From: a virus
Virus record (IMG/VR): IMGVR_UViG_3300010389_000110
Location: 1-26,210 of that record
Reading direction: 5' to 3' (one strand)
DNA length: 26,210 nucleotides
Positions 7,443 through 26,210 of the stretch are shown here, one piece after another (position 1 is the stretch's first letter; the number at the start of each line of letters is the position of its first letter). The translations under genes were made by a program, and so were the position numbers. The notes below the pieces were generated by a model. The model was not told the origin of the DNA. It searched no databases and saw only the letters and a list, made by a program, of their open reading frames with translations.

Positions 7443-10400
7443 ATGCCACAAGAAACTAATTTGAATGTAACTCCTTATTTTGATGATTTTGACGACAAAA
7501 AAAATTTTTACAAAGTTCTTTTTAAACCAGGATATCCAATTCAATCTAGAGAATTAACTACTTTACAGTCAATTCTACAAAATCAGATTGAAAAGTTTGG
7601 ATCTCATATTTTTAAGGAGGGTTCTCCTGTTCTTGGTGGCAATGTAGTTTATAACAACTATTTTGAAGGAATTCAGGTAGAACCAAACTATCTTGGAATT
7701 TCTGTAGATTCTTATTTGAACAATTTTATCGGAAAATATCTTATTGGACAAGATTCTCAAGTAAAAGCAAGAGTTGAACTTATTTTGCCTGCCAATGAGT
7801 CTCCAACTGGTAATACTATAATATATGTTTCATATAGGGATTCAAATTCATCACAAAACACACGAGAATTTAATTCCGGAGAAGTTCTCTTATCTCAGGA
7901 TGATGTCCCCATCGTTTCTGGTGGATTCACTACGATTCAATCTGGACAGGGAGTATCTAGAGTTACTTCGGAAAATTCTTCTATTGTTGGTTCTTCCGTC
8001 ACGATTGCTGATGGAGTTTACTTTATTAGAGGATATTTTGTAAATATTAATAGCGAAACTTTAATATTAGATCCCGTTGCAAATAATGTAAATTATAGTA
8101 TTGGATTAAAGATAAGTGAAGATATTGTCACATCCGATGATGATGAATCTTTAGTAGATAACTCACAAGGATTTACAAACTTTGCTGCACCTGGTGCAGA
8201 TAGACTTTCAATTACAGCATCTTTAACAAAATATTCATTTTCAGAATCTCAAGATGAAGGATATATTGAGTTATTTAAAGTTGTAGACGGATCTCCTGAT
8301 AGAGTTCAAAGAGATGCTGAGTATAATCTTCTTGCAAATGAGTTTGCTAGAAGGACTTATGATGAATCTGGAGACTATTATGTTGCTCCATTTAAAGTTG
8401 ATGTAAGAGAATCTCTTGATAATTTAAAGGGAAATAAGGGAATATTCAAAGAAGGTCAAACAACTTATGGTAATAATGTTGCTGATGAATCTCTAGGAAT
8501 TTATAAAGTATCTCCTGGAAAGGCATACATTAGAGGATTTGAAGTAGAAATTCCAAATCCAACCTTTATAGATTTTCCAAAACCAAGATTAACTAAAACA
8601 CTAAAAAATCAAAGTATTGTTTATACAACCGGATCAACTTTTACACTGAATAGAGTTAATGGAAATCCTTCTTTAGGAATTTCGACAGATTATACAGTAA
8701 CTCTAAGATCCGAAAGATTGGGAGTAGATGATAATATAGCACCAGGAAAGGAAATTGGTCTTGCTAGGGTCTATGATTTTGCTTTAGAGTCAGGGTCATA
8801 CAATAGCTTGTTCCCAAATTCCAATGAGTGGGATATTACTCTTTTTGATGTTCAACCATATATTGAATTTGAACTGAATAATCCAGTTACCTTGCAGGTT
8901 CCAACTTTTATTAAGGGTAGTTCTAGTGGTGCTTCTGCATATTTAAGAGAATCTATTACAAACTCTGGAATTGTTACTGCATATAATGTAGAAGGAAAGT
9001 TCTTAAGAGGTGAAAGACTAAGTTTTGATGGTATTCAAAATAATAGGATTGTAAAATCATTCACTCAATATGATGTAAATGATTTTAAATCAATTTATGG
9101 AGAACCAGTCGGATCTGGAGCAACCTTTAGTGCTGATTTAATACAGACAGTTAAAGCATTTGCTGGATTTGTTTCTATTTCTCCCGTAGTTGGTGGTATC
9201 AGTACAGTAACAAGTTCCGATTTCACATTCTCCGGCAAATCAAAGATCGATGATATTGTAGCATATTCAACTCCGGGCAATGTTGTACCAACATATGCAA
9301 AGGTATCATCTATTTCTGAAAGACAGTTGGAAATTGAAGAAGTTACTCCTGTTAGTGGAGTTTGCGTATCTACACTTCCTGCTTCAGAACTCTCTGTATC
9401 AGATTTTAGAATTTTAAAGTCTGGTCTTCAAAGTTCTACAGACAATACTTTATTTACAGTATTTCCAAAAGATAAAATATCTTCACTTAACTTAGAGAAT
9501 TCTGAATTAATAGTTAGAAGGCAAACTGTTATTAATATTTCTGGGAATAGTTCTCAAGTAATCGTATTACCAAATGATGAGAGATTTTTACCCTATGATG
9601 AAGAAAGATATTCCGTATTTTATCCAGATGGAAGTACCGACCCATTAAGAGAAGATAAATTATCCTTCACATTGGGATCTCAGAATCTAAGAATTAATGG
9701 ATTATCTGCTTCTACTGGAACTGCGGTTTTAACATATACAGTCAAAAAACTAAATGTATCTGCAAAGATAAAGAATAGAAATAGAGTTAATTCTATTGTT
9801 GTTGACAAATCGAAATATAATTATTCTGGAATTGGACAAACCACTGTCAATGATGGATTAGAATTTGGAAATTATCCATACGGAACAAGAGTTCAAGATG
9901 AAGACATTTGTTTAAGATATCCAGATGTTACAAAGTTGTTGGGAGTTTTTGAAACATCGGGCATTATTGGTACACCAGAACTTCAGTCTATTACTTTAGA
10001 TCTTAATACTCTTACAACATCTAATTTAATACTGGGAGAAGAAATTGTAGGACAGGAAAGTAAGTGTGTTGCTATTTTAGTAGAAAGAGTTAATACTAAT
10101 ACGGTCAGTTATATCAGTTTAAATTCGGCAGAATTCATTTCTGGCGAAGGAGTTCAATTTAAAGATTCTAATGTTGTTTCAACTATTTCTTCTTTAAATA
10201 GAGGAAATTGTAAAGATATTACTAGAGATTTTGTATTTGACAATGGGCAAAAAAATACTTTTTATGATTATGCAAAAATAACCAGAAAAGATAGGTCTAG
10301 AGAACCACTTAAAAAGTTAAAAATTGTTTTTGAATCAACTTCAATAAATTCTGCTGATGATGGAAGTTTTTTCTCGGTTGATTCTTATAGTCAATTTGAC

Positions 10401-13400
10401 TACTGCAATATTCCGTCTTTCCAAGGAATAAAAAATTATAATATTCTCGATTTAAGACCTAGAGTTTCTCCATATATCGTATCTGAAGGTGTAAGGTCAC
10501 CATTTGAATCATTATCAAATAATTTTGTCAATGTAGACAACCAAAATACTCCCATTTTGGCATCTGATGAAGATATTATTTTAGATTTTTCATATTATCT
10601 TCCTAGAATTGATAAGATTGTTCTTTCGAAAGAAGGACAATTTGAATTGATGATTGGTGATCCAGCAGAAAATCCTCAAGCACCATTAAATCTTTCAGAA
10701 TCTTTAGACATTGCTACTATCACTCTTCCTGCGTATTTCTGTACTAATGATGAGGTTGGAGTTAGCTTATCTCAGCATAAGAGATATAGAATGTCTGATA
10801 TTAAAAAACTTGAAGATAGAATTAAAAATCTTGAGTATTATACAACTCTTTCTTTATTGGAAAAAGAAACTGCTAACTTTACTATCAAAGATGCAAATGG
10901 ACTTGATAGATTTAAGTCTGGATTTTTCGTTGACAACTTTACAACACTAATTTCACAAAAATCTTCTGCAATTGCCAAAAATGCTATAGATGTTGAAAAT
11001 TCTCAGTTAAGACCCTCAGTATACACAACTTCAATTGATTTAATTCTTGGACATACTAATTCTAGAGGTAATATAAACTTCAATGATGAGGATTTTGATT
11101 ATAAGTCAAATCAATCTATTATTGGTGATAATGTTAAAAAATCTGTTGGTCCTGTTGGAAAAGGAATACTAACTCTCGATTACTCAGAAACTGAGGAAAT
11201 TATTCAACCATATGCAACCAGAGTTGAGAATGTAACTCCATACCTGGTTACTTTTTACGGTGGAATTGCATGTTTAAATCCAGGATCTGATATTTGGTTA
11301 GATCCTGTCGTTCTAGATCCTATCAATCTAGGCGTCAGTGAAGGAGAAACTCAAGTTGTCGATGTTCAATTAGATGATGTACCCGATCCAAATTCGGGAT
11401 GGTGTCCAGTTATATTCGGTGCTTGGGAAACTTCTTGGACAAATGTATCAGCACCAAGAGAAGTTTCTAGAGGTCCAAAGTATGAGAAGGATGGAAAGTG
11501 GTATCAGGATGTTGTTTACGCAAAAGATAAGGAAGGTTATAAGTCTAGAGTAGGTCAAACAAATAGAATTACATTTTCAGATACTCCTGTATCTTATGGT
11601 ACAAATCTGGTTAGTATTGATATTGCCACTTACTGCAGGTCAAGAAATATTGAAATTATATCTAAAAAGTTAAAACCATATACTCAGATGTATGCGTTTT
11701 TTGATGGACAAAGTGTTGATGCATTTATGGTTCCAAAACTATTGGAAATTGAAATGTTATCTGGAGTGTTCCAAATTGGAGAAACTGTTAGAACATTAAA
11801 ATTAGTAGATGGTGAAGGTAAAGCAAATATTCGATTCCGTCTTTGTCAACCAAATCATAGAGAAGGTAGATATGATTCTCCAACAGCAACTTATTTCTTC
11901 AATCCATACGATAGAACTCAAAATATTCCAACAAGTTACTCAGAAGCATCTGAATTTTTAAATATTGATACTTTCCTCTTATCCGAAGAAGCAATTGGAG
12001 AATCTTTTGGATATGTTTCATCTGGAATGGTTCTAATCGGAAGTTCAAGTGGTGCTACTGCTAGAGTTAAGCCTGTAAGATTGATTACTGACAATGTTGG
12101 AACATTGATTGCTTCTCTTTATATTCCCGACCCATCTATTCCAAGCAACCCTAGATTTAATACTGGAGAAAAAGTCTTTAGATTATCAAGTCTACAGAGT
12201 AACTCAACTGTTCCTGGATTACTAAACAGTTTAGCAGAATCCACTTTCTTTGCTAAGGGAACTGTTAAAACAACTCAGGAAGCTTATGGTTATATAAGAA
12301 ATAGATTGAAAGAAGTAGGGACTCTATCGGAATCTTTACCAATATCGACAACGGATTTTTCACAACCTATTACCGTTGAAGTTCCTGGTCCACCACCAAA
12401 ACCAGAACCAACCCCATATCCAACACCAGAACCAGAACCTTCTCCTGAACCAAAACCTTCTCCTGGACCAAAACCCACTCCTGGTCCAAAACCAACTCCT
12501 TCCCCATCTCCTGGTCCAAGACCTTCTCCTGGTCCTTCACCATCTCCTGGTCCAAGACCTTCTCCTGGTCCAAAACCAGCATCCAAAAAAATTGAACAAT
12601 TTAAGTTATATACAACTCCAGGAACTTATACATTTACTGTTCCAAAAGGTGTAACTTCTATTGAGGCTTCTGGAGTTGGTGCTGGCGGTGGAGGCGGATA
12701 TGGAAAAGGTTCAAGATCAGGTGGAGGTGGCGGCGGCGGCGGAGTAGCTTCCAAATCAATTTCAGTAAATCCGGGTGAAGTTTTAACAATTGTTGTTGGT
12801 GCTGGAGGAAAAGGAGCTTCTTCAGATAATAAAGCAACCGATGGAGAACCAAGTTATGTACTGGGTAAGAATATACTTGCTAGAGGTGGTGTAGGTGGTT
12901 CGAGCACATCTAAAGGTAGAGGTGGAGATAATAGCGGTGGAGGTGGAAAAGGTGAAGATGGAAGATATGATAGAGATGATGATGATAAAAAAGGTGGATA
13001 CGGTGGAGGTGCTGGTTTAATCGGCGGCGGAAACTGCGGACACCCAAATTCAGAAGACTGTGGTGGAGGACTTCAAAGAGGCGGGGCAGGTGGAAATGGT
13101 ATAAAATTTGCTGGTTCTGGTGGAACTGATGGTGAAGTACCAGATTGTGGAAACACAACTGGCGGAAGAGGCGGCACCTATGGTGGTGGCGGTGGTGGTG
13201 GAATTGGTAATGGTTCTGGAGCAGATGGATCTCCCGGAGCATTCCTATTAAAGTGGAAAGAGTCAAAAGATTCAGCATCTACAGATCTAATTCCCCCTAT
13301 TGGATTGGATCCATTAGCACAATCCTTTACTATTAATTCTCCCGATGGAAGATTTGTGACTGCTATTGATCTTTTCTTCCAATCTAAAGATGATTCTCTC

Positions 13401-15812
13401 CCCATTATTGTAGAACTAAGACCAATGTCACTTGGTCTACCTACTGGAGAAATTTATCCATTCTCCCAAGTAATTGTTTATCCAGAAGATATTGAAATTT
13501 CTGAAGATGCTTCTGCTGCCACAAGAATTCAATTTGATGCTCCAGTTTATCTACAAGGAGATGCAGAGCACGCGGTTGTAATTAAATCAGATTCCACAAA
13601 CTATTATGCTTGGATCTCTAGACTCGGGGAAGTTGATATTACCACAGCATCTCTACCAGAATCTGGAAGAACTATTATCGCAAGTCAACCAGATATTAGT
13701 ACAGTTGGATCTTTATTTAAATCACAAAATGCTTCTACTTGGACTCCAAGTCAATTTGAGGATCTTAAGTTCACTTTATATTCAGCAGTATTTGTGCCTA
13801 ATGGAAGCGTAAGTTTCTTTAATCCAGATTTAACAAAGAAAAACAAACAGTTTTCATCACTGCCTAATAATCCTTTAGAAATTTTCTCAAGAAAAATAAA
13901 GGTTGATATTTCAGAAACTCTCAATGATTCTGGATTTACACTTGGTAATACAGTTGTTCAAACTGTTACTGGTGCGACAGGAAATTATGTTGGTGCTACT
14001 GGTGCGGTATCAAGTATATCAATTACCAATAGTGGAATTGGATATACCCCATCAAATGGAACATCGTTCACTTACTTTGGAGTACCTTTAGAAAATTCTT
14101 CTTCTGAAGGCAGATTGGCAACTGCGGACATCACAATTGGAAGGGAAATTCTACCTAATGGAGATTTTAATGATGGAGTCGCAATCGCAGCAACTATATC
14201 AACAAGAGGAACTGGGTATCAAAAGGGAGATGTTTTATCTGTTGCTCAATTGGGAGACCAAACTCTTGGTAGAAACTTATTATTGACTGTTGATGATGTT
14301 ACAGATTTCAATCAAATCATTATTGATAATGTACAAGGAAACTTCTTAACTGGAATTGGATATACTTTAATGTATACCAATTCATCAGAAATTAATGTGA
14401 ATATTAATGATGGAGTAACAGTGCCAATTTATATCGACAATATCACAGAAATAACTGATGGATTACACATTAAAGTTAATCATCAGAATCACGGAATGCA
14501 CTCTGAGGTTAATTTTGTTGAATTGTCTAACGTAAAACCAGATACTAATCCCACAACCCTAATTGGAAATATTTCTTTTGATGCAGCATTGTCCTCAATA
14601 GAATTATCATCAACTTCGGGATTTACAACTTTTGAAAATGCGCCTGTAAGTGTATCAAATCCTGGTTATATTTTAATCGATAGAGAAATACTTAGCTATA
14701 CTGGCGTTTCTGGAAACCAATTGACGGGAATTACTCGGGGGAATGTGATTGGTAGTAGTGATGGTTGTATTATACCAAGAGCTTTACCACACTTTGAAGG
14801 TGAGGAAGTTTATAAGTATGAATTGAATGGAGTTTCTCTAAGAAGAATCAATACAACTCATACACTCCAGGATGCCTCCGTTTTAGAACCAATCGGTCTT
14901 GACTACTACATTCTTTATATTGATACTGTAAGACCAGATCCTTCACTGAAACCTTTATATTTCTCAGAAACTAAGTCTACAGGAGGATCTACTGTCCAAG
15001 CATCCAGTAATATTCAATTTGAAATTATTAAGCCAAATGTTGAAACTTTCATTCCACCAAAAACAAGTATATCAGCAGATTTAAGAACAGTTTCTGGAAC
15101 TAGTGTTAGTGGAGTTGAACCTTCATTTGTAGATCAAGGTTATCAAAGAGTTGATTTGAATGTTGATAATTATATGAACACTAGTAGACTAATCTGCTCT
15201 AAGATAAATGAAACCACTTATCTTACAGATCAACCTGCAAATAAATCTTTAGAACTCAGAACTTTCTTAACAACTGAAAATGATAGATTGACTCCTGTAA
15301 TTGATTTGGATAGAGTTGGAGCAATTCTAATTTCAAATAGAGTTAATAGACCTATTGAAAACTATATAAATGATTCAAGAGTTTCAACTTTACAAAAAGA
15401 TCCAGTTTCGTTCTATTATGCCACAAAACCAATTTCTCTTGAAGTTCCAGCAACTTCTCTGAGAACTTATATTGCCGCATATATTAATAGAAATGCTGAC
15501 ATTAGAGCATTCTATGCTTTAATGAAGGATCCAACAGAGACTCCAATTTATTATCCATTCCCAGGATATTCAAATAAAATTACTTCTGGTGAAATTATTG
15601 ATATCAATAACAGTGATGGAACTTCGGATAAATTTGTTCCGAATAATGAATTATTTGGAAATGGTAATACTGAAAATTACTTCAAAGATTATGAATTCAG
15701 CATTGACAATTTGGCAGAATTCAGATATTTTAGCATCAAGATATCAGTTTCTTCGAATATTCAAGTTTATCCACCGAAACTAAGAGACCTAAGAGTAATC
15801 GCTTTAGCATGA
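7443..15812 (+). CDS. DUF4815-type giant virion structural protein with Pro-rich linker and Gly-rich insert
   Basis: 2789 residues. The N-terminus (TPYFDDFDDKKNFYKVLFKP, then the SRELTTLQSILQNQIEKFG region and GGNVVYN) is the signature I associate with DUF4815 proteins of cyanomyoviruses, found in virions and probably part of the baseplate or its fibres. Residues 1-600 are this domain. SGA-type modules lie near residues 485-540, 860-910 and 1525-1580. Residues 1648-1712 form a proline-rich linker of PSPGPKPTPG-like units. Residues 1721-1940 form a glycine-rich domain that begins with a YTFTVPKGVTSIEASGVG strand and runs into long glycine tracts. The conserved structural part resumes at DPLAQSF (about 1956) and continues through LFKSQNASTWTPSQFEDLKF (2091-2110). 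GxGY repeats (about 2188 and 2252), an RG-type module (2380-2453) and a conserved end, PPKLRDLRVIALA, follow. It occupies the place of T4 gp9-gp12 and wac, none of which is recognisable here. The stop overlaps the next start (ATGA). The exact role is inferred. Confidence 0.85.
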   Translation: MPQETNLNVTPYFDDFDDKKNFYKVLFKPGYPIQSRELTTLQSILQNQIEKFGSHIFKEGSPVLGGNVVYNNYFEGIQVEPNYLGISVDSYLNNFIGKYLIGQDSQVKARVELILPANESPTGNTIIYVSYRDSNSSQNTREFNSGEVLLSQDDVPIVSGGFTTIQSGQGVSRVTSENSSIVGSSVTIADGVYFIRGYFVNINSETLILDPVANNVNYSIGLKISEDIVTSDDDESLVDNSQGFTNFAAPGADRLSITASLTKYSFSESQDEGYIELFKVVDGSPDRVQRDAEYNLLANEFARRTYDESGDYYVAPFKVDVRESLDNLKGNKGIFKEGQTTYGNNVADESLGIYKVSPGKAYIRGFEVEIPNPTFIDFPKPRLTKTLKNQSIVYTTGSTFTLNRVNGNPSLGISTDYTVTLRSERLGVDDNIAPGKEIGLARVYDFALESGSYNSLFPNSNEWDITLFDVQPYIEFELNNPVTLQVPTFIKGSSSGASAYLRESITNSGIVTAYNVEGKFLRGERLSFDGIQNNRIVKSFTQYDVNDFKSIYGEPVGSGATFSADLIQTVKAFAGFVSISPVVGGISTVTSSDFTFSGKSKIDDIVAYSTPGNVVPTYAKVSSISERQLEIEEVTPVSGVCVSTLPASELSVSDFRILKSGLQSSTDNTLFTVFPKDKISSLNLENSELIVRRQTVINISGNSSQVIVLPNDERFLPYDEERYSVFYPDGSTDPLREDKLSFTLGSQNLRINGLSASTGTAVLTYTVKKLNVSAKIKNRNRVNSIVVDKSKYNYSGIGQTTVNDGLEFGNYPYGTRVQDEDICLRYPDVTKLLGVFETSGIIGTPELQSITLDLNTLTTSNLILGEEIVGQESKCVAILVERVNTNTVSYISLNSAEFISGEGVQFKDSNVVSTISSLNRGNCKDITRDFVFDNGQKNTFYDYAKITRKDRSREPLKKLKIVFESTSINSADDGSFFSVDSYSQFDYCNIPSFQGIKNYNILDLRPRVSPYIVSEGVRSPFESLSNNFVNVDNQNTPILASDEDIILDFSYYLPRIDKIVLSKEGQFELMIGDPAENPQAPLNLSESLDIATITLPAYFCTNDEVGVSLSQHKRYRMSDIKKLEDRIKNLEYYTTLSLLEKETANFTIKDANGLDRFKSGFFVDNFTTLISQKSSAIAKNAIDVENSQLRPSVYTTSIDLILGHTNSRGNINFNDEDFDYKSNQSIIGDNVKKSVGPVGKGILTLDYSETEEIIQPYATRVENVTPYLVTFYGGIACLNPGSDIWLDPVVLDPINLGVSEGETQVVDVQLDDVPDPNSGWCPVIFGAWETSWTNVSAPREVSRGPKYEKDGKWYQDVVYAKDKEGYKSRVGQTNRITFSDTPVSYGTNLVSIDIATYCRSRNIEIISKKLKPYTQMYAFFDGQSVDAFMVPKLLEIEMLSGVFQIGETVRTLKLVDGEGKANIRFRLCQPNHREGRYDSPTATYFFNPYDRTQNIPTSYSEASEFLNIDTFLLSEEAIGESFGYVSSGMVLIGSSSGATARVKPVRLITDNVGTLIASLYIPDPSIPSNPRFNTGEKVFRLSSLQSNSTVPGLLNSLAESTFFAKGTVKTTQEAYGYIRNRLKEVGTLSESLPISTTDFSQPITVEVPGPPPKPEPTPYPTPEPEPSPEPKPSPGPKPTPGPKPTPSPSPGPRPSPGPSPSPGPRPSPGPKPASKKIEQFKLYTTPGTYTFTVPKGVTSIEASGVGAGGGGGYGKGSRSGGGGGGGGVASKSISVNPGEVLTIVVGAGGKGASSDNKATDGEPSYVLGKNILARGGVGGSSTSKGRGGDNSGGGGKGEDGRYDRDDDDKKGGYGGGAGLIGGGNCGHPNSEDCGGGLQRGGAGGNGIKFAGSGGTDGEVPDCGNTTGGRGGTYGGGGGGGIGNGSGADGSPGAFLLKWKESKDSASTDLIPPIGLDPLAQSFTINSPDGRFVTAIDLFFQSKDDSLPIIVELRPMSLGLPTGEIYPFSQVIVYPEDIEISEDASAATRIQFDAPVYLQGDAEHAVVIKSDSTNYYAWISRLGEVDITTASLPESGRTIIASQPDISTVGSLFKSQNASTWTPSQFEDLKFTLYSAVFVPNGSVSFFNPDLTKKNKQFSSLPNNPLEIFSRKIKVDISETLNDSGFTLGNTVVQTVTGATGNYVGATGAVSSISITNSGIGYTPSNGTSFTYFGVPLENSSSEGRLATADITIGREILPNGDFNDGVAIAATISTRGTGYQKGDVLSVAQLGDQTLGRNLLLTVDDVTDFNQIIIDNVQGNFLTGIGYTLMYTNSSEINVNINDGVTVPIYIDNITEITDGLHIKVNHQNHGMHSEVNFVELSNVKPDTNPTTLIGNISFDAALSSIELSSTSGFTTFENAPVSVSNPGYILIDREILSYTGVSGNQLTGITRGNVIGSSDGCIIPRALPHFEGEEVYKYELNGVSLRRINTTHTLQDASVLEPIGLDYYILYIDTVRPDPSLKPLYFSETKSTGGSTVQASSNIQFEIIKPNVETFIPPKTSISADLRTVSGTSVSGVEPSFVDQGYQRVDLNVDNYMNTSRLICSKINETTYLTDQPANKSLELRTFLTTENDRLTPVIDLDRVGAILISNRVNRPIENYINDSRVSTLQKDPVSFYYATKPISLEVPATSLRTYIAAYINRNADIRAFYALMKDPTETPIYYPFPGYSNKITSGEIIDINNSDGTSDKFVPNNELFGNGNTENYFKDYEFSIDNLAEFRYFSIKISVSSNIQVYPPKLRDLRVIALA
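12384..12579 (+). repeat. Proline-rich repeat linker inside the DUF4815-type protein
   Basis: About 65 codons made of tandem P-x-P units (PEPEPSPEPKP, then PSPGPKPTPGPKP, then PSPGPRPSPGP). At DNA level a TCTCCTGGTCCA-like unit is repeated several times. Such segments form extended, stiff or polyproline-II linkers, and here one separates the upstream structural part from the glycine-rich domain. Slippage between units could change its length. Confidence 0.85.
12603..13262 (+). other. Glycine-rich domain encoded within the DUF4815-type gene
   Basis: Begins with a short beta-rich lead (TTPGTYTFTVPKGVTSIEAS) that often introduces glycine-rich domains in phage tail and bacterial surface proteins. 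It then carries glycine tracts of up to nine residues broken by charged patches, including DRDDDDKKGG, and two CG or NCGH cysteine spots. The tracts use GGC and GGT codons (for example 12729-12742) and are locally GC-rich against the AT-rich surroundings. This suggests a module acquired or expanded separately from the rest of the gene. Polyglycine folds of this kind occur in the receptor-binding adhesin of T-even phages, but equivalence is only a guess. Confidence 0.75.
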
Positions 15813-16030: not shown

Positions 16031-16203
16031 TTAATCCCGAAGACATTATCTTAGAAGATATTTCAAAAATGTTTTCTTTTGAAAAGATATCAAGAGACAT
16101 AGATAGTATAGAAAGTATTGAAGATGCTAAAACTATGTGTAAGGCATTCGCTAAATTATACTTATGTCAACAAGAAGCAGTATCTAATCTGGCTAGAATC
16201 TAA
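16027..16203 (+). CDS. Very small conserved-type protein, unknown function
   Basis: 58 residues starting MINPEDIILEDISKMFSFEK and ending LYLCQQEAVSNLARI. The start overlaps the stop of the 73-residue gene (ATGA), and its TAA stop shares one base with the gp13 ATG (TAATG). That tight chain argues for a real, translationally coupled gene despite its size. The sequence is predicted largely helical, with acidic N-terminal residues and one cysteine in each of the motifs TMCKAF and LYLCQQ. The function is not recognised. Confidence 0.7.
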   Translation: MINPEDIILEDISKMFSFEKISRDIDSIESIEDAKTMCKAFAKLYLCQQEAVSNLARI

Positions 16204-17036
16204 TGGCAAAACCATCTACAAGGCAAGAATTAGTTGATTATTGCCTAAGAAAACTTGGGTATCCAGTTCTGGAAATAAACATTGCTGATGAGCAAATTGA
16301 TGACCTTGTAGATGATGCTCTTCAGTTCTTTTATGAAAGGCATTTTGATGGTGTAATACAGAATTATTTGAAATATCAAATAACTCAAGATGATATTGAT
16401 AGAGCAAAGGGTCAAGTTGGGGTTACAACTTCAACTGTAAACAATACAATAAATGGTATTCAGACTCAATATGATTTTAAAGAAAATAGTAATTATTTAC
16501 CAATACCCCCAAACGTAATTGGGGTTAATAAGATTTTTAAATTTGAGGGTGCTAATTCAATTTCAAGTGGAATGTTCAGTGTCAAATATCAACTGTTCTT
16601 AAATGATTTTTATTATTGGGGCAATCTAGAGCTTCTTACATACTCAATGATAAAAACGAAACTTGAAGACATTGAATTTTTACTGAATACGGATAAGCAA
16701 ATAAGATTTAATAAGAGACAAGATAGATTATATTTAGATGTTGATTGGAATACTCTTAGAGAGGGTCAATGGTTAGTTATTGATTGTTATCAAATAATGG
16801 ACCCAAATAATTATAGTGAGGTTTGGAATGATTCATTCTTAAAACCATATTTAACAGCACTTATGAAGAGGCAGTGGGGATACAATATTTCCAATAAATT
16901 TAGAGGTCTTAAACTTCCTGGTGGTGTTGAATTGGATGGAAGAACTCTTGTTGAAGATGCTCAAAGGGAAATTGATTCTCTAATGGATAAAATGTCATCA
17001 ACATACGAACTTCCACCTTTAGATATGATAGGATAA
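16203..17036 (+). CDS. 13: Neck protein gp13 (head completion)
   Basis: 277 residues, close to T4 gp13 (309). Together with gp14 it forms the neck that closes the packaged head and accepts the tail. Conserved features are the N-terminal helix (RQELVDYCLRKLGYPVLEIN, then IADEQIDDLVDDALQFFYERHFDG), an aromatic central part (FYYWGNLELL), and a C-terminal block with WNDSFLKPYLTALMKRQWG, KLPGGVELDGRTLVEDAQRE and PPLDMIG. T4 gp13 has matching LPGGV and PPLDF motifs. It follows the 58-residue gene with a one-base overlap and precedes gp14 by 4 bases, so neck genes are co-translated. There are no inserted beta modules, unlike gp14. Confidence 0.93.
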   Translation: MAKPSTRQELVDYCLRKLGYPVLEINIADEQIDDLVDDALQFFYERHFDGVIQNYLKYQITQDDIDRAKGQVGVTTSTVNNTINGIQTQYDFKENSNYLPIPPNVIGVNKIFKFEGANSISSGMFSVKYQLFLNDFYYWGNLELLTYSMIKTKLEDIEFLLNTDKQIRFNKRQDRLYLDVDWNTLREGQWLVIDCYQIMDPNNYSEVWNDSFLKPYLTALMKRQWGYNISNKFRGLKLPGGVELDGRTLVEDAQREIDSLMDKMSSTYELPPLDMIG

Positions 17037-17040
17037 AAAT

Positions 17041-18450
17041 ATGCTCAATCCATTTTTACTTAACGGTTCAAAAAGCGAGCAAGGTCTGATGCAAGACCTG
17101 ATAAATGAGTCATTAAGAATGTATGGGATTGATGTATATTATTTGCCAAGACAATTTATAACCGAGAAAACAGTAATTAAAGAAGTAGTAGAGTCTGAGT
17201 TTAATTCTGCATTTGCAATTGAGGCATATGTTGAATCTTATGATGGTTATTCTGGACAGGGGACAATACTTTCAAAATTTGGAATACAAGAACTTGATGA
17301 TTTAACTTTGACAATATCAAAAGAAAGATATGAAAATTATATTCAAAATCTGATTAAAAATATGCCAGATTCAAAATTGACTTCTAGACCTAAAGAAGGC
17401 GATTTAATCTACTTCCCTCTTGGAGAAAGGATATTTGAAATTAAATATGTTGAACACGAAAAACCATTCTATCAACTTCAAAAAAATTATGTGTATCAAT
17501 TAACTTGCGAACTCTTCAGATATGAAGATGAAATTATTGATACTGATATTGATGAAATTGACGAACTTCTTCAGGATTATGGATACATTCAAACACTTTC
17601 AGTTGTTGGTGCTGGAGTAACTGCTGAAGCATACACATCTATAGTTGATGGTGGTGTAAATTCAATAACGGTAGTTAATAGAGGAAGAGGATATACTAGT
17701 ACTCCTGAGGTTAGATTCTCACTTCCACCATCTGGAGGAGTTAGAGCAACTGCAGTTGCTGAAATGATTGATGGTATAATTGACCTTTGCGAATCTGACC
17801 CAAATCTCAAGAGAGTCCAAAGAGTTTTGATTACAAATCCAGGTGCTGGATATACAGTTCCCCCCGAAATAAAATTTATTGGTGGTGGTGGATATGATGC
17901 TAAAGCAGTTGCTACTATTGCTGATGGAATAGTAGGAGTTATAACTGTAACAAATCCTGGTTCTGGATATATAAATCAACCAAGTATTACCTTCACTGGA
18001 ATATCTTTAGTATCTGCTGCTGCAACTGCTGTATTGAACAATGGTTCAATAAGTGCGATTCAGATTATAAATGCGGGTGCTGGATATACTTCAGTTGATA
18101 TTGAAATTAGTTCTCCTGATGTTGTTTCCGGTGGTGGAAGTTTTGAATTCAACGAAGTTATTGTTGGAAGTATATCTGGAACTACTGCTAGGGTTAAGTA
18201 TTGGAATATTACTTCAAAACAATTAGAAGTATCTAATCTTGATGGTAGATTTAGAGTTGGAGAAAATATTACTGGACAAGAATCTGGAGCATCATATGTT
18301 CTAACTGATATAAGCGAAGATAATCTTCAGGACAATCAGTCTCTAAATAATTCAAATACTGGCGATAAATTTGCAAATAATCTTGAAATTGAAACTGAAG
18401 CAGATTTGATTTTAGATTTTAGCGAAAAAAATCCATTTGGAACTCCATAA
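17041..18450 (+). CDS. 14: Neck protein gp14 with large internal beta-repeat insertion
   Basis: 469 residues against 256 in T4. Residues 1-175 align by eye with T4 gp14: LNPF start, IDVYYLPRQFI (30-40), an EAYVESYDGYSG region (61-72), then KFGIQELDDLTLTI, and the hallmark PKEGDLIYFPL (117-127) and PFYQLQKN (142-149). The C-terminal tail SEKNPFGTP parallels the end of the T4 protein. Between about 183 and 430 lies material with no T4 counterpart. It comprises four GxGY repeats (NRGRGYTSTP 213-222, NPGAGYTVPP 266-275, NPGSGYINQP 305-314, NAGAGYTSVD 344-353) and one SGA-type module (372-421). The insertion probably forms a beta-rich decoration protruding from the neck. A weak AGGA-type ribosome site overlaps the end of gp13. 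Confidence 0.92.
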   Translation: MLNPFLLNGSKSEQGLMQDLINESLRMYGIDVYYLPRQFITEKTVIKEVVESEFNSAFAIEAYVESYDGYSGQGTILSKFGIQELDDLTLTISKERYENYIQNLIKNMPDSKLTSRPKEGDLIYFPLGERIFEIKYVEHEKPFYQLQKNYVYQLTCELFRYEDEIIDTDIDEIDELLQDYGYIQTLSVVGAGVTAEAYTSIVDGGVNSITVVNRGRGYTSTPEVRFSLPPSGGVRATAVAEMIDGIIDLCESDPNLKRVQRVLITNPGAGYTVPPEIKFIGGGGYDAKAVATIADGIVGVITVTNPGSGYINQPSITFTGISLVSAAATAVLNNGSISAIQIINAGAGYTSVDIEISSPDVVSGGGSFEFNEVIVGSISGTTARVKYWNITSKQLEVSNLDGRFRVGENITGQESGASYVLTDISEDNLQDNQSLNNSNTGDKFANNLEIETEADLILDFSEKNPFGTP

Positions 18451-18464
18451 TTTAAGAGGTTAAG

Positions 18465-19484
18465 ATGTTTGAATATTACTATAACGAAATATTTCGTAAA
18501 ACAATTATTGGATTTGGAACTTTATTCAATGGAATTGATGTAAAACATTTTGATGAATCCGGGAATGTAAGTTCTGTAATAAAAGTACCTCTGGCTTATG
18601 GACCAATTCAAAAGTTTTTGGCAAGAATTGAGCAACAACCAAATCTGAATACTCCTGTTCAAATGACTCTTCCAAGAATGTCATTTGAATTCGTTGGTCT
18701 TTCTTATGATACTACAAGAAAGTTGACAACAACTCAAACATTTATATCAAAGTCTCCAACCGACAGTTCGGACTTGAAGAAAACTTATATGCCCGTTCCA
18801 TATAATATGCAGTTTGAACTTAGTATTATGACTAAGTTAAATGATGATATGCTTCAAATTATTGAACAAATATTACCATATTTTCAACCTTCTTACAACT
18901 TGACAATTGATTTAGTAAAAACAATTGGTGAAAAAAGAGATGTATCGATTGTTTTAGAGTCAATTAATATGGAAGATAATTATGAAGGAGATTATTCTAC
19001 TAGAAGAGCTTTAGTTTATACTTTAAGATTTAACGCAAAAACTTATCTTTTTGGTCCAACATCTTCCGCAAGCAAGGATATCATCAAGAAAGCATCTATC
19101 ACTCTTGTTTCCGGAGATTCGAAATCAACCTCAAGAGATCTTACATATTCTTCCACACCTGTAGCAACAAAGAGTTATAGTAACTTACAAATTGCTACAT
19201 TATTATCCAATATGTCAGAATCAACAACAGAGGTTACTGTTTCGCAAGCAGCAAATATTCCCATCAATTCTTATGTTACAATTGATAATGAAACACTGAA
19301 AGTCGTAGATAAAATTGATAGGACTGATGTAATTAATCAAGATACTTTAGTTCTTGCTAGAGGACAATATGGGACACCTATTACAACTCACGTAAGTGGA
19401 ACACCAATAGAATTGATTACAGAAGCTGATAATGCTCTTATTCAACCAGGAGATGACTTTGGATTTGATGGGAATCTATTTTAA
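18465..19484 (+). CDS. 15: Tail terminator / sheath stabiliser gp15
   Basis: 339 residues against 272 in T4 gp15. It caps the tail tube and sheath and joins the tail to the neck. The start MFEYYYNEIFRKTIIGFGTLF matches the T4 MFGYFYNSSFRR start. Further shared stretches are TLPRMSFEFVGLSYD, YNMQFELSIMTK, the near-identical DDMLQIIEQILPYFQP, then KRDVSIVLESINMED and a STRRALVYTLRF block. The C-terminal extension (about 245-330) is an RG-type module with VTIDNETLKV, LARGQYGTPITTHVSGTP. The ATG is preceded by AAGAGGT, a good ribosome site, 4 bases before it. Confidence 0.94.
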   Translation: MFEYYYNEIFRKTIIGFGTLFNGIDVKHFDESGNVSSVIKVPLAYGPIQKFLARIEQQPNLNTPVQMTLPRMSFEFVGLSYDTTRKLTTTQTFISKSPTDSSDLKKTYMPVPYNMQFELSIMTKLNDDMLQIIEQILPYFQPSYNLTIDLVKTIGEKRDVSIVLESINMEDNYEGDYSTRRALVYTLRFNAKTYLFGPTSSASKDIIKKASITLVSGDSKSTSRDLTYSSTPVATKSYSNLQIATLLSNMSESTTEVTVSQAANIPINSYVTIDNETLKVVDKIDRTDVINQDTLVLARGQYGTPITTHVSGTPIELITEADNALIQPGDDFGFDGNLF

Positions 19485-23130: not shown

Positions 23131-24996
23131 ATGGCTGATCCAAACATTAGGATAAAAAGATCTTCGGTTCCTGGTAAGAGACCAACAATAGAGCAGCTGA
23201 GTTCTGGGGAACTAGCTTTAAATACTTATGATGCCGAATTATTTTCCCGCAGAGAAAGAACAGGTATTGGTACTGATGTTGTAAGAATCGGTGCCGGAGC
23301 AACAGTTACTAATGTTTTATATGTCACAAAAGACGGAAGCGACACCAATACAGGAAAAAAACTCGGAGACGCAAAAGCAACAATTAAAGGAGCCCTTGAA
23401 ATCGCAGAAGAGGGATCCATTATTAGAGTTAGTGCTGGATCTTATATAGAAGATAATCCTTTAACTATTCCAAGGCAAGTTTCAATAGTTGGAGATAGTT
23501 TAAGAGAAGTTACAATCACTCCACAGAATTCAAATCAAGACCTTTTTTATGTTAGAGAAGGTGTTTATGTTACAGAAATGTCTTTTAAGGGATCGGTAGA
23601 TCCTGGAAAGGCTTGCTTTAGATTTGATCCACATTCCGTTGGGTTTACTTCACAATCACCATATATCAGAAACTGTACAAATTTTATTTCTAATAGTATT
23701 GGGTTAAAAATTGATGGTTCTGATGTGATTGGAAAGTTAAAGAGCATGGTTACAGACTCTTTTACTCAATATAATCAAGGTGGTATTGGAGTTTCTATTA
23801 CAAATGAAGGATATGCTCAGTTAGTTTCATTATTTACTATTTGTAATGATATTTCAGTTTATTGTGGTAGTGGTGGTGCTTGCGATCTAACCAACTCAAA
23901 CTCTTCTTTTGGCAACTATGCATTAGTTGCAGATGGCATAGGACCAAGAAAATATACTGGAATTATTACAAGCGCAGCAGCAGCAAATTCTGATACATTC
24001 GTACTGGATTTGAATGTTCCAACATTAAATGTAACTAATGCCAGTTATGATAATGTGACTGGATTAACTACAATCACAGTTGATTCGACTCACAATTTTA
24101 ATGTTGGGATGGGAGTTACAATTTCTGGTCTTGGATTTACTTGTGCTTCTGATGGGGGGATTACTACAGTTACCTATCCCTCAGGAAATAAAGGATATAT
24201 TTTTGAAGTAAATGCGATTCCAAGTTCAACATCATTTGAAGTATATGTTGGGGCATCAACTTTACCTCACACATATACATCTGGTGGCACTGTAAAAATT
24301 AATGCAGTAAGACCTTTTGATGGTCAAGTTGTTTATTTTGGAGAACTTTTTTATACAGTAGAGAATGTTGAGATTACTTCCGGTGGAAGTGGATATACTG
24401 AAAATGTTTCAGTAACTTTTGAAAGTCCATCTACTAATTGGGGTGTTCCAGCAACTGGAGTTGGTCAAGTTGAGAATGGTCAGGTGACGAGTGTAGAAAT
24501 AGTTTCTAATGGTAGAGGATATACTCATACACCAACTGTAACAATTTCAGGTCCGCCAGGAGCAGGTTCAACCGCAACAGGAACAGCAGTTTTAATTCCA
24601 ACTTATTATGCCGTTAGAGAGTCGACACCAGTAGTTTCTGGAATTTGTACAATTACTATTACAGAAAATCTACCATATTCTGTTGGAGTTGGAACTGAAG
24701 TTCCATTCTTCAAACAAAGTAGAGTTCTTGCCTCTGGACATTCTATGGAATACATAGGAACAGGAACTAATATTGATTCTGCTTTCCCCCAAGCTGGAGG
24801 AGTTCCTATTCAAGAAAATGAAACTGATATGAGAAATGGTGGATTAGTTGTTTATACTTCAACAGATCAAGCAGGTAATTTTAGAATAGGTGATGGTGTT
24901 GTTGTTGACCAATTAACAGGCACTATTTCTGGAAGATTTTATTCTAAGAGTCTTTTCTCAACATTAACACCATTTATTCTAGCATTAGGAGAATAA
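23131..24996 (+). CDS. Beta-helix tail fibre-like structural protein
   Basis: 621 residues. Residues 1-40 (PNIRIKRSSVPGKRPTIEQL, then SSGELALNTYDAELF) parallel the N-terminal fibre domain of the 708-residue protein. Residues 62-270 look like a right-handed parallel beta-helix of pectate-lyase type: YVTKDGSDTNTG, DAKATIKGALEIA, IIRVSAGSYIEDNPLTIP, then VSIVGDSLREVTITP. Residues 300-390 hold a module with an H-N-F-N-VGM start and a PHTYTSGG end. GxGY repeats are at 417-422 and 460-464. The C-terminus (GHSMEYIGTGTNID, YTSTDQAGNFRIGDG, LFSTLTPFILALGE) is a signature I associate with cyanophage structural proteins. The ATG has a GAGGT ribosome site 3 bases upstream. The helix may bind or cleave surface sugars, but no catalytic residues can be assigned. 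Confidence 0.87.
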   Translation: MADPNIRIKRSSVPGKRPTIEQLSSGELALNTYDAELFSRRERTGIGTDVVRIGAGATVTNVLYVTKDGSDTNTGKKLGDAKATIKGALEIAEEGSIIRVSAGSYIEDNPLTIPRQVSIVGDSLREVTITPQNSNQDLFYVREGVYVTEMSFKGSVDPGKACFRFDPHSVGFTSQSPYIRNCTNFISNSIGLKIDGSDVIGKLKSMVTDSFTQYNQGGIGVSITNEGYAQLVSLFTICNDISVYCGSGGACDLTNSNSSFGNYALVADGIGPRKYTGIITSAAAANSDTFVLDLNVPTLNVTNASYDNVTGLTTITVDSTHNFNVGMGVTISGLGFTCASDGGITTVTYPSGNKGYIFEVNAIPSSTSFEVYVGASTLPHTYTSGGTVKINAVRPFDGQVVYFGELFYTVENVEITSGGSGYTENVSVTFESPSTNWGVPATGVGQVENGQVTSVEIVSNGRGYTHTPTVTISGPPGAGSTATGTAVLIPTYYAVRESTPVVSGICTITITENLPYSVGVGTEVPFFKQSRVLASGHSMEYIGTGTNIDSAFPQAGGVPIQENETDMRNGGLVVYTSTDQAGNFRIGDGVVVDQLTGTISGRFYSKSLFSTLTPFILALGE

Positions 24997-25000
24997 TAAA

Positions 25001-25330
25001 ATGGCATTAGCACTTAATGTATTTCAGACTATCACAGCAGTAGTATCACTTTCAGATGATGAAGTATATACAGCACCAACTGGATATACTGGTGTTGTTT
25101 TATTATGTCAAGTTGCAAATATTGGATCGACAACTGAATCTGTTGATTTGATTCATAGAAGAAGTTCTACTGATACCGAGTTACTTAAGAATTTTCCCAT
25201 TTCTGGAAATGATACTGCCAATCTTCTTTCTGGAAAATTGGTACTTGAAAGTGGAGATAAATTAGTATTATCAGGCAGTGATGGATCAAATTTAAAATTT
25301 GTTGCAAGCATTTTAGAATCATTAAATTAA
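25001..25330 (+). CDS. Small beta-rich virion-type protein, unknown function
   Basis: 109 residues. An AGGAGAA ribosome site overlaps the last two codons of the fibre gene and lies 7 bases before the ATG, so the genes are read from one transcript. Alternating strands (VVSLSDDEVYTAPTGYTGVVLLCQVANIG, split by turns), a RRSS patch, and a C-terminal LESGDKLVLSGSDGSNLKFVASILESLN suggest a compact beta-sandwich. I think similar short proteins accompany fibre genes in cyanomyoviruses. A minor virion part or fibre accessory is plausible but not shown. Confidence 0.72.
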   Translation: MALALNVFQTITAVVSLSDDEVYTAPTGYTGVVLLCQVANIGSTTESVDLIHRRSSTDTELLKNFPISGNDTANLLSGKLVLESGDKLVLSGSDGSNLKFVASILESLN

Positions 25331-25348: not shown

Positions 25349-26210
25349 ATGTCAAAATATCTCAGCAATCGCCAAAAAAATCTCAAAGTCGGTATATCTT
25401 CTTATTCTGAGGATAAAACGACAATAGAAGTTATTGGAAAAGTTGGCATTGGGACTGAATCGGCAGGTGCTGATTTGGATATTAATGGTGATCTGAGACT
25501 TCGTGGAGGGTTTTATGATAAAGATAATCAAGTTGGAAATCAGGGGCAAGTATTAGTCTCTACTGGAGCAGGTGTAACTTGGACAACTATTGATAATATT
25601 TCAGCAATAGAAGAAATTATTAATACAACTTTAACTGGTGTTGCTGTTGAAGAAGAAAGTGTTGGTATTGGTACATCATTCACAACTCTTAATTTTGTTG
25701 GTCTGGGAGTTACTGCAACTGGAGAAGGTTCAAAAGCAACTATCACCTTTAGTCAACAAGTAGGACCACAGGGTATTCAAGGAATCACAGGAACTCAGGG
25801 TATACAAGGAAGACAAGGAACTACAGGTACTCAAGGTATTCAGGGAACTCAAGGAGTCCAAGGTGTTCAAGGAATACAGGGTACACAAGGTGTTCAAGGT
25901 ATTCAAGGTACACAAGGAACTCAAGGAGTCCAAGGAGTCCAAGGTGTTCAAGGTATCCAAGGAACTCAAGGAACTCAAGGAGTCCAAGGTGTTCAGGGCA
26001 TTCAGGGCACTCAAGGTGTTCAAGGTATCCAGGGAACTCAAGGTGTTCAAGGTGTTCAAGGTATTAGTGGTGGAATTGGTGGTATAGGTCCTCAAGGTAT
26101 TCAAGGTATTCAAGGTATTCAGGGAACTCAAGGTGTTCAAGGTATCCAGGGTACTCAAGGAACTCAAGGTGTCCAGGGAGTTCAAGGTATTCAGGGAACT
26201 CAAGGTATTC
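25349..26210 (+). CDS. Collagen-like tail fibre protein (3' end missing)
   Basis: 287 complete codons are visible; the frame is open at the right edge. The N-terminal part has a [22 protein letters not shown] motif, split across residues 31-53, and [19 protein letters not shown] (64-82), both typical of phage fibre N-terminal or repeat regions. From about residue 139 (25763) the protein is an unbroken Gly-X-Y series, about 49 triplets, mostly GIQ, GTQ and GVQ. Only a few differ ([24 protein letters not shown]). A trimeric collagen-like shaft is expected. Proline is nearly absent from the X and Y positions, unlike animal collagen. No clear ribosome site; it follows the 109-residue gene by 18 bases. 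The receptor-binding tip would lie beyond the window. Confidence 0.85.
25763..26210 (+). repeat. Tandem 9-base DNA repeat encoding Gly-X-Gln triplets
   Basis: GGT-ATT-CAA, GGA-ACT-CAA and GGT-GTT-CAA units follow one another to the right edge, with higher-order blocks such as GGAACTCAAGGTGTTCAAGG recurring. The units stay in frame throughout, and synonymous codons vary (GGT/GGA/GGC, CAA/CAG). This points to coding selection plus expansion by recombination or slippage. Reads through this region could be misassembled. Confidence 0.9.

Follow-up and report, generated by a model that had tools for sequence, protein, structure and literature searches.

The gene at the end of the present window (the whole stretch of 26,210 nucleotides that was analysed, positions 1 to 26,210 of the IMG/VR virus record IMGVR_UViG_3300010389_000110) raises the question of what kind of protein carries a long collagen-like repeat with hardly any proline, and of what might hold such a repeat together. 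Collagen stability is usually explained by proline and hydroxyproline or by charge pairs; frequent imino acids (in microbes, charge pairs) are a usual collagen trait, which lies outside the definition of the repeat itself.

The collagen-like shaft and its gene

The features on which the analysis draws are the following.

16203..19484, + strand: neck and tail-completion genes, namely Ad2 (gp13), Hc2 (gp14) and the gp15 tail sheath stabiliser (PHROG and Pfam matches)
23131..24996, + strand: tail fibre protein, 621 aa (phrog_17885, 1.1e-198)
25001..25330, + strand: 109-aa virion protein, found ahead of the fibre gene in relatives as well (46% identity to an S-SCSM1 protein in the equivalent place)
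25349..26210, + strand: start of the collagen-fibre gene, truncated by the contig end (open reading frame with 287 readable codons; closest relatives continue)
25349..25762, + strand: N-terminal non-collagen domain, residues 1-138, with a conserved 19-residue start and then a beta-rich module, VGIGT...VSTGxGxxWT (relatives, alignment, model)
25763..26209, + strand: Gly-X-Gln collagen-like shaft of 49 triplets and a partial one, continuing beyond the edge (repeat count, Pfam, composition)
26060..26095, + strand: weak patch within the shaft, 12 residues, register kept (sequence)

The fibre reading frame (25349-26209, + strand) starts with ATG, encodes 287 aa and is open at the contig end. Residues 139-287 consist of Gly-X-Y repeats, 49 full triplets followed by “GI”, in which glycine occupies the first position 49 times out of 49. 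This long unbroken run matches Pfam Collagen (PF01391) at 3.5e-24, with 84.8 bits against a curated cut-off of 27.2, and it is the sole run of at least six Gly-X-Y triplets in any of the six frames of the window. The Y position holds Gln in 44 triplets, Thr in 2, Ile in 2 and Ser in 1, and the X position holds Ile in 15, Thr in 15, Val in 14, Pro in 2, Gly in 2 and Arg in 1, so that the fraction of Gln in Y and that of Ile/Thr/Val in X are both 0.898 (44/49 each). The 98 X and Y places contain two prolines (2.0% imino) and one charged residue (1.0%); the imino acids and charge pairs that are usual in collagens are thus not frequent here. An earlier note had read the stretch from 25763 as a phage shaft of about 49 uninterrupted triplets with Gln almost always in Y, beta-branched residues in X and nearly no proline, and each element of this description is confirmed: the triplets are in register with the weak patch included, the composition is as stated, and the Pfam match and the T4-like gene neighbourhood agree with a collagen-like shaft of a phage. 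A separate reading frame, 7443-15812, which encodes a 2789-aa structural protein, contains a long proline-rich stretch (PGPKPTPGPKPSPSP...) and then a Gly-rich one (window 12384-12600); the phage therefore uses proline-rich extended segments elsewhere.

The matches to Ad2 (gp13), Hc2 (gp14) and gp15 identify the phage as T4-like, and a baseplate wedge protein is also matched in this structural cluster (PHROG and Pfam). Among Synechococcus phages, the three that match the window gp15 best are 54.9-57.8% identical to it. The gene order of Synechococcus phage S-SCSM1 runs from two neck genes through gp15, the small terminase and the long tail fibre to a 112-aa virion protein and a tail fibre. The window agrees with this order at the places tested (the 109-aa protein, the 621-aa fibre, which aligns piecewise to the long tail fibre of S-SCSM1, and the N-terminal domain), so the fibre gene lies in a T4-like structural cluster arranged as in a cultured cyanophage. 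The tail fibre in the equivalent slot of S-SCSM1 (QFG06284.1) has an N-domain of 40% identity and a C-terminal Peptidase_S74, a likeness that for the C-terminus applies to relatives of the window gene, which is itself cut off; it differs in being 711 aa long and in having no collagen run, and the fibre slot can therefore dispense with the shaft. The succession of virion protein and fibre gene is common to the relatives L240 and L241 as well.

The N-terminal domain has 38 relatives in viral contigs, and an alignment of 16 of them has 33 invariant columns. It matches 30 of 50,697 phage records, all of them Synechococcus, Prochlorococcus or marine, and it is shared between the window gene and annotated tail fibres. 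The marine origin that the earlier note gave to the phage would rest on these T4-like cyanophage relatives, from which its host and habitat would likewise have to be read.

Composition of the shaft and its maintenance

The evaluation of whether a triplet composition is unusual requires a sample that is not selected for that composition. Such a “composition-blind” sample was obtained from viral contigs with a pattern of 21 successive Gly codons in which nothing but the GG is specified; 80 loci, all of which were analysed, were drawn from at least 120 stretches. The fraction of Gln in Y has a median of 0.13 and a maximum of 0.753 in this sample and exceeds 0.5 in 5 of the 80 loci, compared with 0.90 in the window; neither the window's X=Ile/Thr/Val of 0.898 nor its Y=Gln of 0.898 is reached by any of the 80 viral loci listed. 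The top Y residue is most often Thr (30/80) and the top X residue most often Pro (26/80). Low imino and charge content (at most 3% of each) occurs in 8 of the 80 loci, which are of Ser/Thr/Tyr/Ala types and do not exceed 0.10 in Y=Gln. The loci L142, L150, L156, L167 and L195 represent a separate class of viral Gly-X-Y rods, mostly Gly/Ser/Thr and likewise nearly free of proline. According to Table 4 of PMC3368898, Gln makes up 13.0% of Y and Pro 22.1% of X in viral collagens, and from the blind sample and these tabulated figures together it follows that the bias of the window shaft is extreme, as the earlier note had held.

The shaft is nevertheless not unique, since viral contigs commonly contain proline-poor shafts with Gln in Y. 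When the shaft was used as the query, at least 419 relatives were confirmed among at least 600 stretches, and the best-scoring 80 of these, a set which is hence biased towards the query, include 79 with a + strand run of at least 15 triplets. Y=Gln reaches 0.85 or more in 15 of these 79 best-scoring loci, in 14 of which X=Pro stays at or below 0.05, and in 2 of the 14 the X position is also at least 0.8 Ile/Thr/Val. Among the longest of this set are L046, with 622 triplets in a single unbroken run, and L043, with 884 triplets and Y=Gln of 0.98. A pattern of 14 successive Gly-X-Gln triplets also finds matches in cellular genomes. Among the matches listed, X=Pro is at least 0.3 in 21 of the 79 cellular loci analysed, many others of which are Gly-Gln-Gln or Gly-Arg-Gln, and X=Ile/Thr/Val is at least 0.8 in 2 of them; for the 80 viral loci analysed the latter number is 6, with 14 more at 0.6 or above. 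No description of a Gly-X-Gln collagen class was found in the titles, abstracts and text passages searched, a body of literature that excludes most subscription journals, and no imino-free Gly-X-Gln chain is evident among the names of the 39 PDB matches listed, the best of which was aligned. That match, 8zxl/9ius, was rejected as a solved Gly-X-Gln rod, for it has a GAP-GSQ-GLQ repeat with proline and was matched through composition bias. A tblastn search of phages with the shaft as query yielded no match, probably because of the low-complexity filter. Host-guest stability values, which were also sought in the literature, were not found.

Within the N-domain family, shafts of at least 15 triplets are present in 27 of the 38 relatives and missing from 11. 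The count of triplet types across relatives that the earlier note had proposed gives Y=Gln of at least 0.85 in 10 of the 15 distinct shaft-bearing relatives, 9 of which have X=Pro no higher than 0.05. By this comparison, most relatives conserve Gln in Y strictly. It is not indispensable in every lineage, since Y=Gln is 0.42-0.44 in L023-L028, and in some relatives Thr in Y is about as frequent. The X position varies: Thr/Ile/Val in the window's branch, Ala/Pro/Thr/Ser in L004, and Leu/Thr/Asn in L018 and L026.

The codons make it possible to separate selection on the protein from the composition of the DNA. In the 15 distinct shaft-bearing relatives, all 1482 CAN codons in Y are CAA or CAG and none is CAT or CAC, while the third bases of the shaft Gly codons are A in 978 cases, T in 893, C in 112 and G in 38. 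Changes between purine and pyrimidine are therefore tolerated where they are silent and do not occur where His would take the place of Gln, and, judged by these codons, Gln in Y is kept by selection at the level of the protein. Base composition was rejected as the cause of the Gln, because Y=Gln shows no dependence on GC content (rho 0.09). X=Pro follows it weakly (rho 0.34), and AT-rich DNA would thus account in part for the low proline content.

A probable modular fibre and the alternatives to it

The earlier note had held that a break of the reading frame soon after the edge would speak against a genuine shaft. None is seen in the relatives; those with 80% N-domain identity continue past the point at which the window stops. 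One of them, L240 (a 108,871-base record), has a closed reading frame of 4370 codons with an N-terminus as in the window. It contains six shafts of 79, 124, 77, 89, 64 and 25 triplets, 458 in total, separated by repeated modules of 163-549 aa, and its X and Y places over the 458 triplets are 0.7% imino and 2.0% charged. A W-[TV]-D-P segment precedes five of the six shafts and AGSA[NE]QVVYK follows five. Motifs of this kind before and after the shaft occur at 22 and 18 of 27 loci of the N-domain family versus 6 and 3 of 79 shaft-query loci; a general shaft-flanking code was accordingly rejected, the motifs being largely confined to the N-domain family. Near the C-terminus of the L240 protein, at residues 4256-4317, lies a PF13884 Peptidase_S74, which is matched also in L245 (together with collagen), S-SCSM1 and S-CAM9; no S74 match was obtained in the closed relatives L018 and L020. 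The window gene, cut by the contig end, would presumably end as L240 does. With the collagen rise of 0.286 nm per residue, the 458 triplets of L240 would correspond to about 390 nm of shaft; for EPclA, a passage of PMC3368898 gives 2.88 angstrom per residue.

Contigs with identical N-domain DNA (0/417 differences; L005-L010 and L240/L241) differ by whole triplets in their shafts, with 79/74, 124/123/138 and 64/55. The last pair reflects L241, which resembles L240 and has 55 triplets in shaft five instead of 64. Such differences may be real variation in length, or they may come from collapse of repeats or errors of assembly within them.

The reading that best fits these results, with a probability of about three in four, is that the gene cut off by the window's end encodes a giant tail fibre, modular and trimeric, of a T4-like (Kyanoviridae-type) aquatic phage, in which collagen-type segments serve as spacers and the first of these shafts is where the window stops. 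An alternative is that the Gly-X-Gln stretch forms polyglycine-II/polyproline-II bundles, non-twisting or single-chain, instead of a collagen superhelix. Such a bundle is the fold of the snow flea antifreeze protein, and period-3 glycine with little proline is common to the polyglycine-II fold; a structure of this type exists in a phage fibre, the S16 adhesin (PDB 6F45, as given in a passage of PMC11869133). That fold is built of short helices joined by turns, however, and the window shaft has no turn-like breaks, and in L240, with runs as long as 124 triplets, a chain would find no turn at which to fold back. The S74 chaperone of L240 points to a trimer as well, and the bundle is unlikely. 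A beta fibre, whether beta-helix or amyloid-like, which the earlier note had named as the outcome that would count against a triple helix, is suggested by composition alone (Ile, Val, Thr and Gln). Beta strands alternate with a period of two residues, into which a strict period-3 glycine does not fit. Single-chain AlphaFold2 models have mean pLDDT values of 45.4 and 40.7, and confidence is highest in small beta segments that precede a shaft (in the window N-domain, strands 67-72 and 75-80, pLDDT around 80). The shaft itself is modelled as coil at a pLDDT of about 26, which is uninformative, so that the lack of predicted strands there counts against a beta fibre at low confidence. Such a fibre is very improbable.

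It might also be supposed that the repeat arose incidentally, through slippage in an AT-rich 9-bp repeat, and serves as a disordered linker whose amino acid content has no structural meaning. In favour of this, repeats with periods of 9, 27 and 36 nt are detected, the number of triplets varies between contigs of identical N-domain DNA as described above, and X=Pro is weakly related to GC content. Against this, Gln in Y is kept despite silent change elsewhere in the codons and independently of GC content, glycine is missing from none of the 49 triplets, and the order of X residues is essentially aperiodic, with 26 nt as the longest exact DNA repeat, on which ground a perfect tandem array was rejected. 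The slippage reading is decidedly unlikely, a little more so than the polyglycine-II bundle.

For the modular trimeric fibre we infer a triple helix, a trimer, attachment to the virion, receptor binding and a stabilising role for Gln. The conserved N-terminus would attach the fibre to the virion, the long Gly-X-Gln stretches would be collagen-type triple-helical spacers, and short beta-rich modules flanking each shaft would keep the three chains in register. S74 chaperones have a trimerising role, and the C-terminal one would act as an intramolecular chaperone that drives trimerisation of the host-contacting end. With almost no proline and almost no charge, the shafts most likely owe their stability to the sum of many weak effects: the amides of Gln in Y may bond to the backbone, to a neighbouring chain or to water, beta-branched X residues may promote an extended conformation of the backbone, and each shaft may be clamped as a trimer at its two ends. 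We hypothesize that Gln is the main stabiliser, which is supported by its strict codon-level conservation in most relatives together with the near absence of imino acids and charges, and is weakened by the use of Thr in Y about as often in some of them. A broader proposal is put forward tentatively, with rather less than even confidence: that aquatic T4-like phages evolved a collagen which needs neither imino acids nor salt bridges, in which hundreds of Gln in Y, in combination with X residues that are beta-branched or else small or hydrophobic, replace proline and hydroxyproline, and in which beta modules between shafts of 25-124 triplets keep the register along some 390 nm of shaft per fibre.

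Known systems and significance

The closest described system is that of the E. coli prophage protein EPclA and its relatives, which, according to passages of PMC3368898, share with the window gene a Gly-X-Y shaft that sits beside further fibre domains in the tail-fibre protein of a phage, a preference for Gln and Thr in Y, and the lack of prolyl hydroxylation. From the same source, Pro accounts for 48.1% of X in the EPclPs, and Arg/Lys for 31.0% and Gln for 14.5% of Y, whereas the window shaft has Pro in 2 of 49 X positions, one charged residue and Gln in 44 of 49 Y positions; the other domains and the type of phage differ too. The fibres of S-CAM9 and DSL-LC02 belong to Kyanoviridae phages and have collagen runs, and one stretch in each matches the window N-domain, but X is mostly Pro/Gln and Y Thr/Lys in the former, and the latter has Thr/Ala in X, Thr/Gln in Y and shorter runs. 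Directly after the collagen-bearing tail fibre of S-CAM9, in which X is proline-rich, are two 2OG-Fe(II) oxygenase genes (L250 10411-11576), candidates for a phage-encoded prolyl hydroxylase; for the window prolyl hydroxylation was rejected, as no such gene was identified there and the shaft has few prolines in any case. In passages of PMC7029224, structural proteins of T4-like marine phages (pelagimyophage and cyanomyophage) that probably bind receptors are said to include some with triple collagen repeats; these passages describe neither a triplet composition nor a giant multi-shaft architecture. Staphylococcus phage 80alpha has a predicted collagen-like segment in its baseplate fibre FibU, but, as passages of PMC7048315 describe it, this segment is short (residues 178-208), with only twelve copies resolved, and the phage is of an unrelated type.

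What holds the window shaft together may differ from what does so in the collagens studied to date. If a triple helix forms, the shaft would be a natural test of the minimal chemistry that holds collagen together, and recombinant collagen materials could draw on it for a design that needs no hydroxylase. For the biology of these phages, the results point to a very long modular fibre, in which the spacer is optional and differs between lineages.
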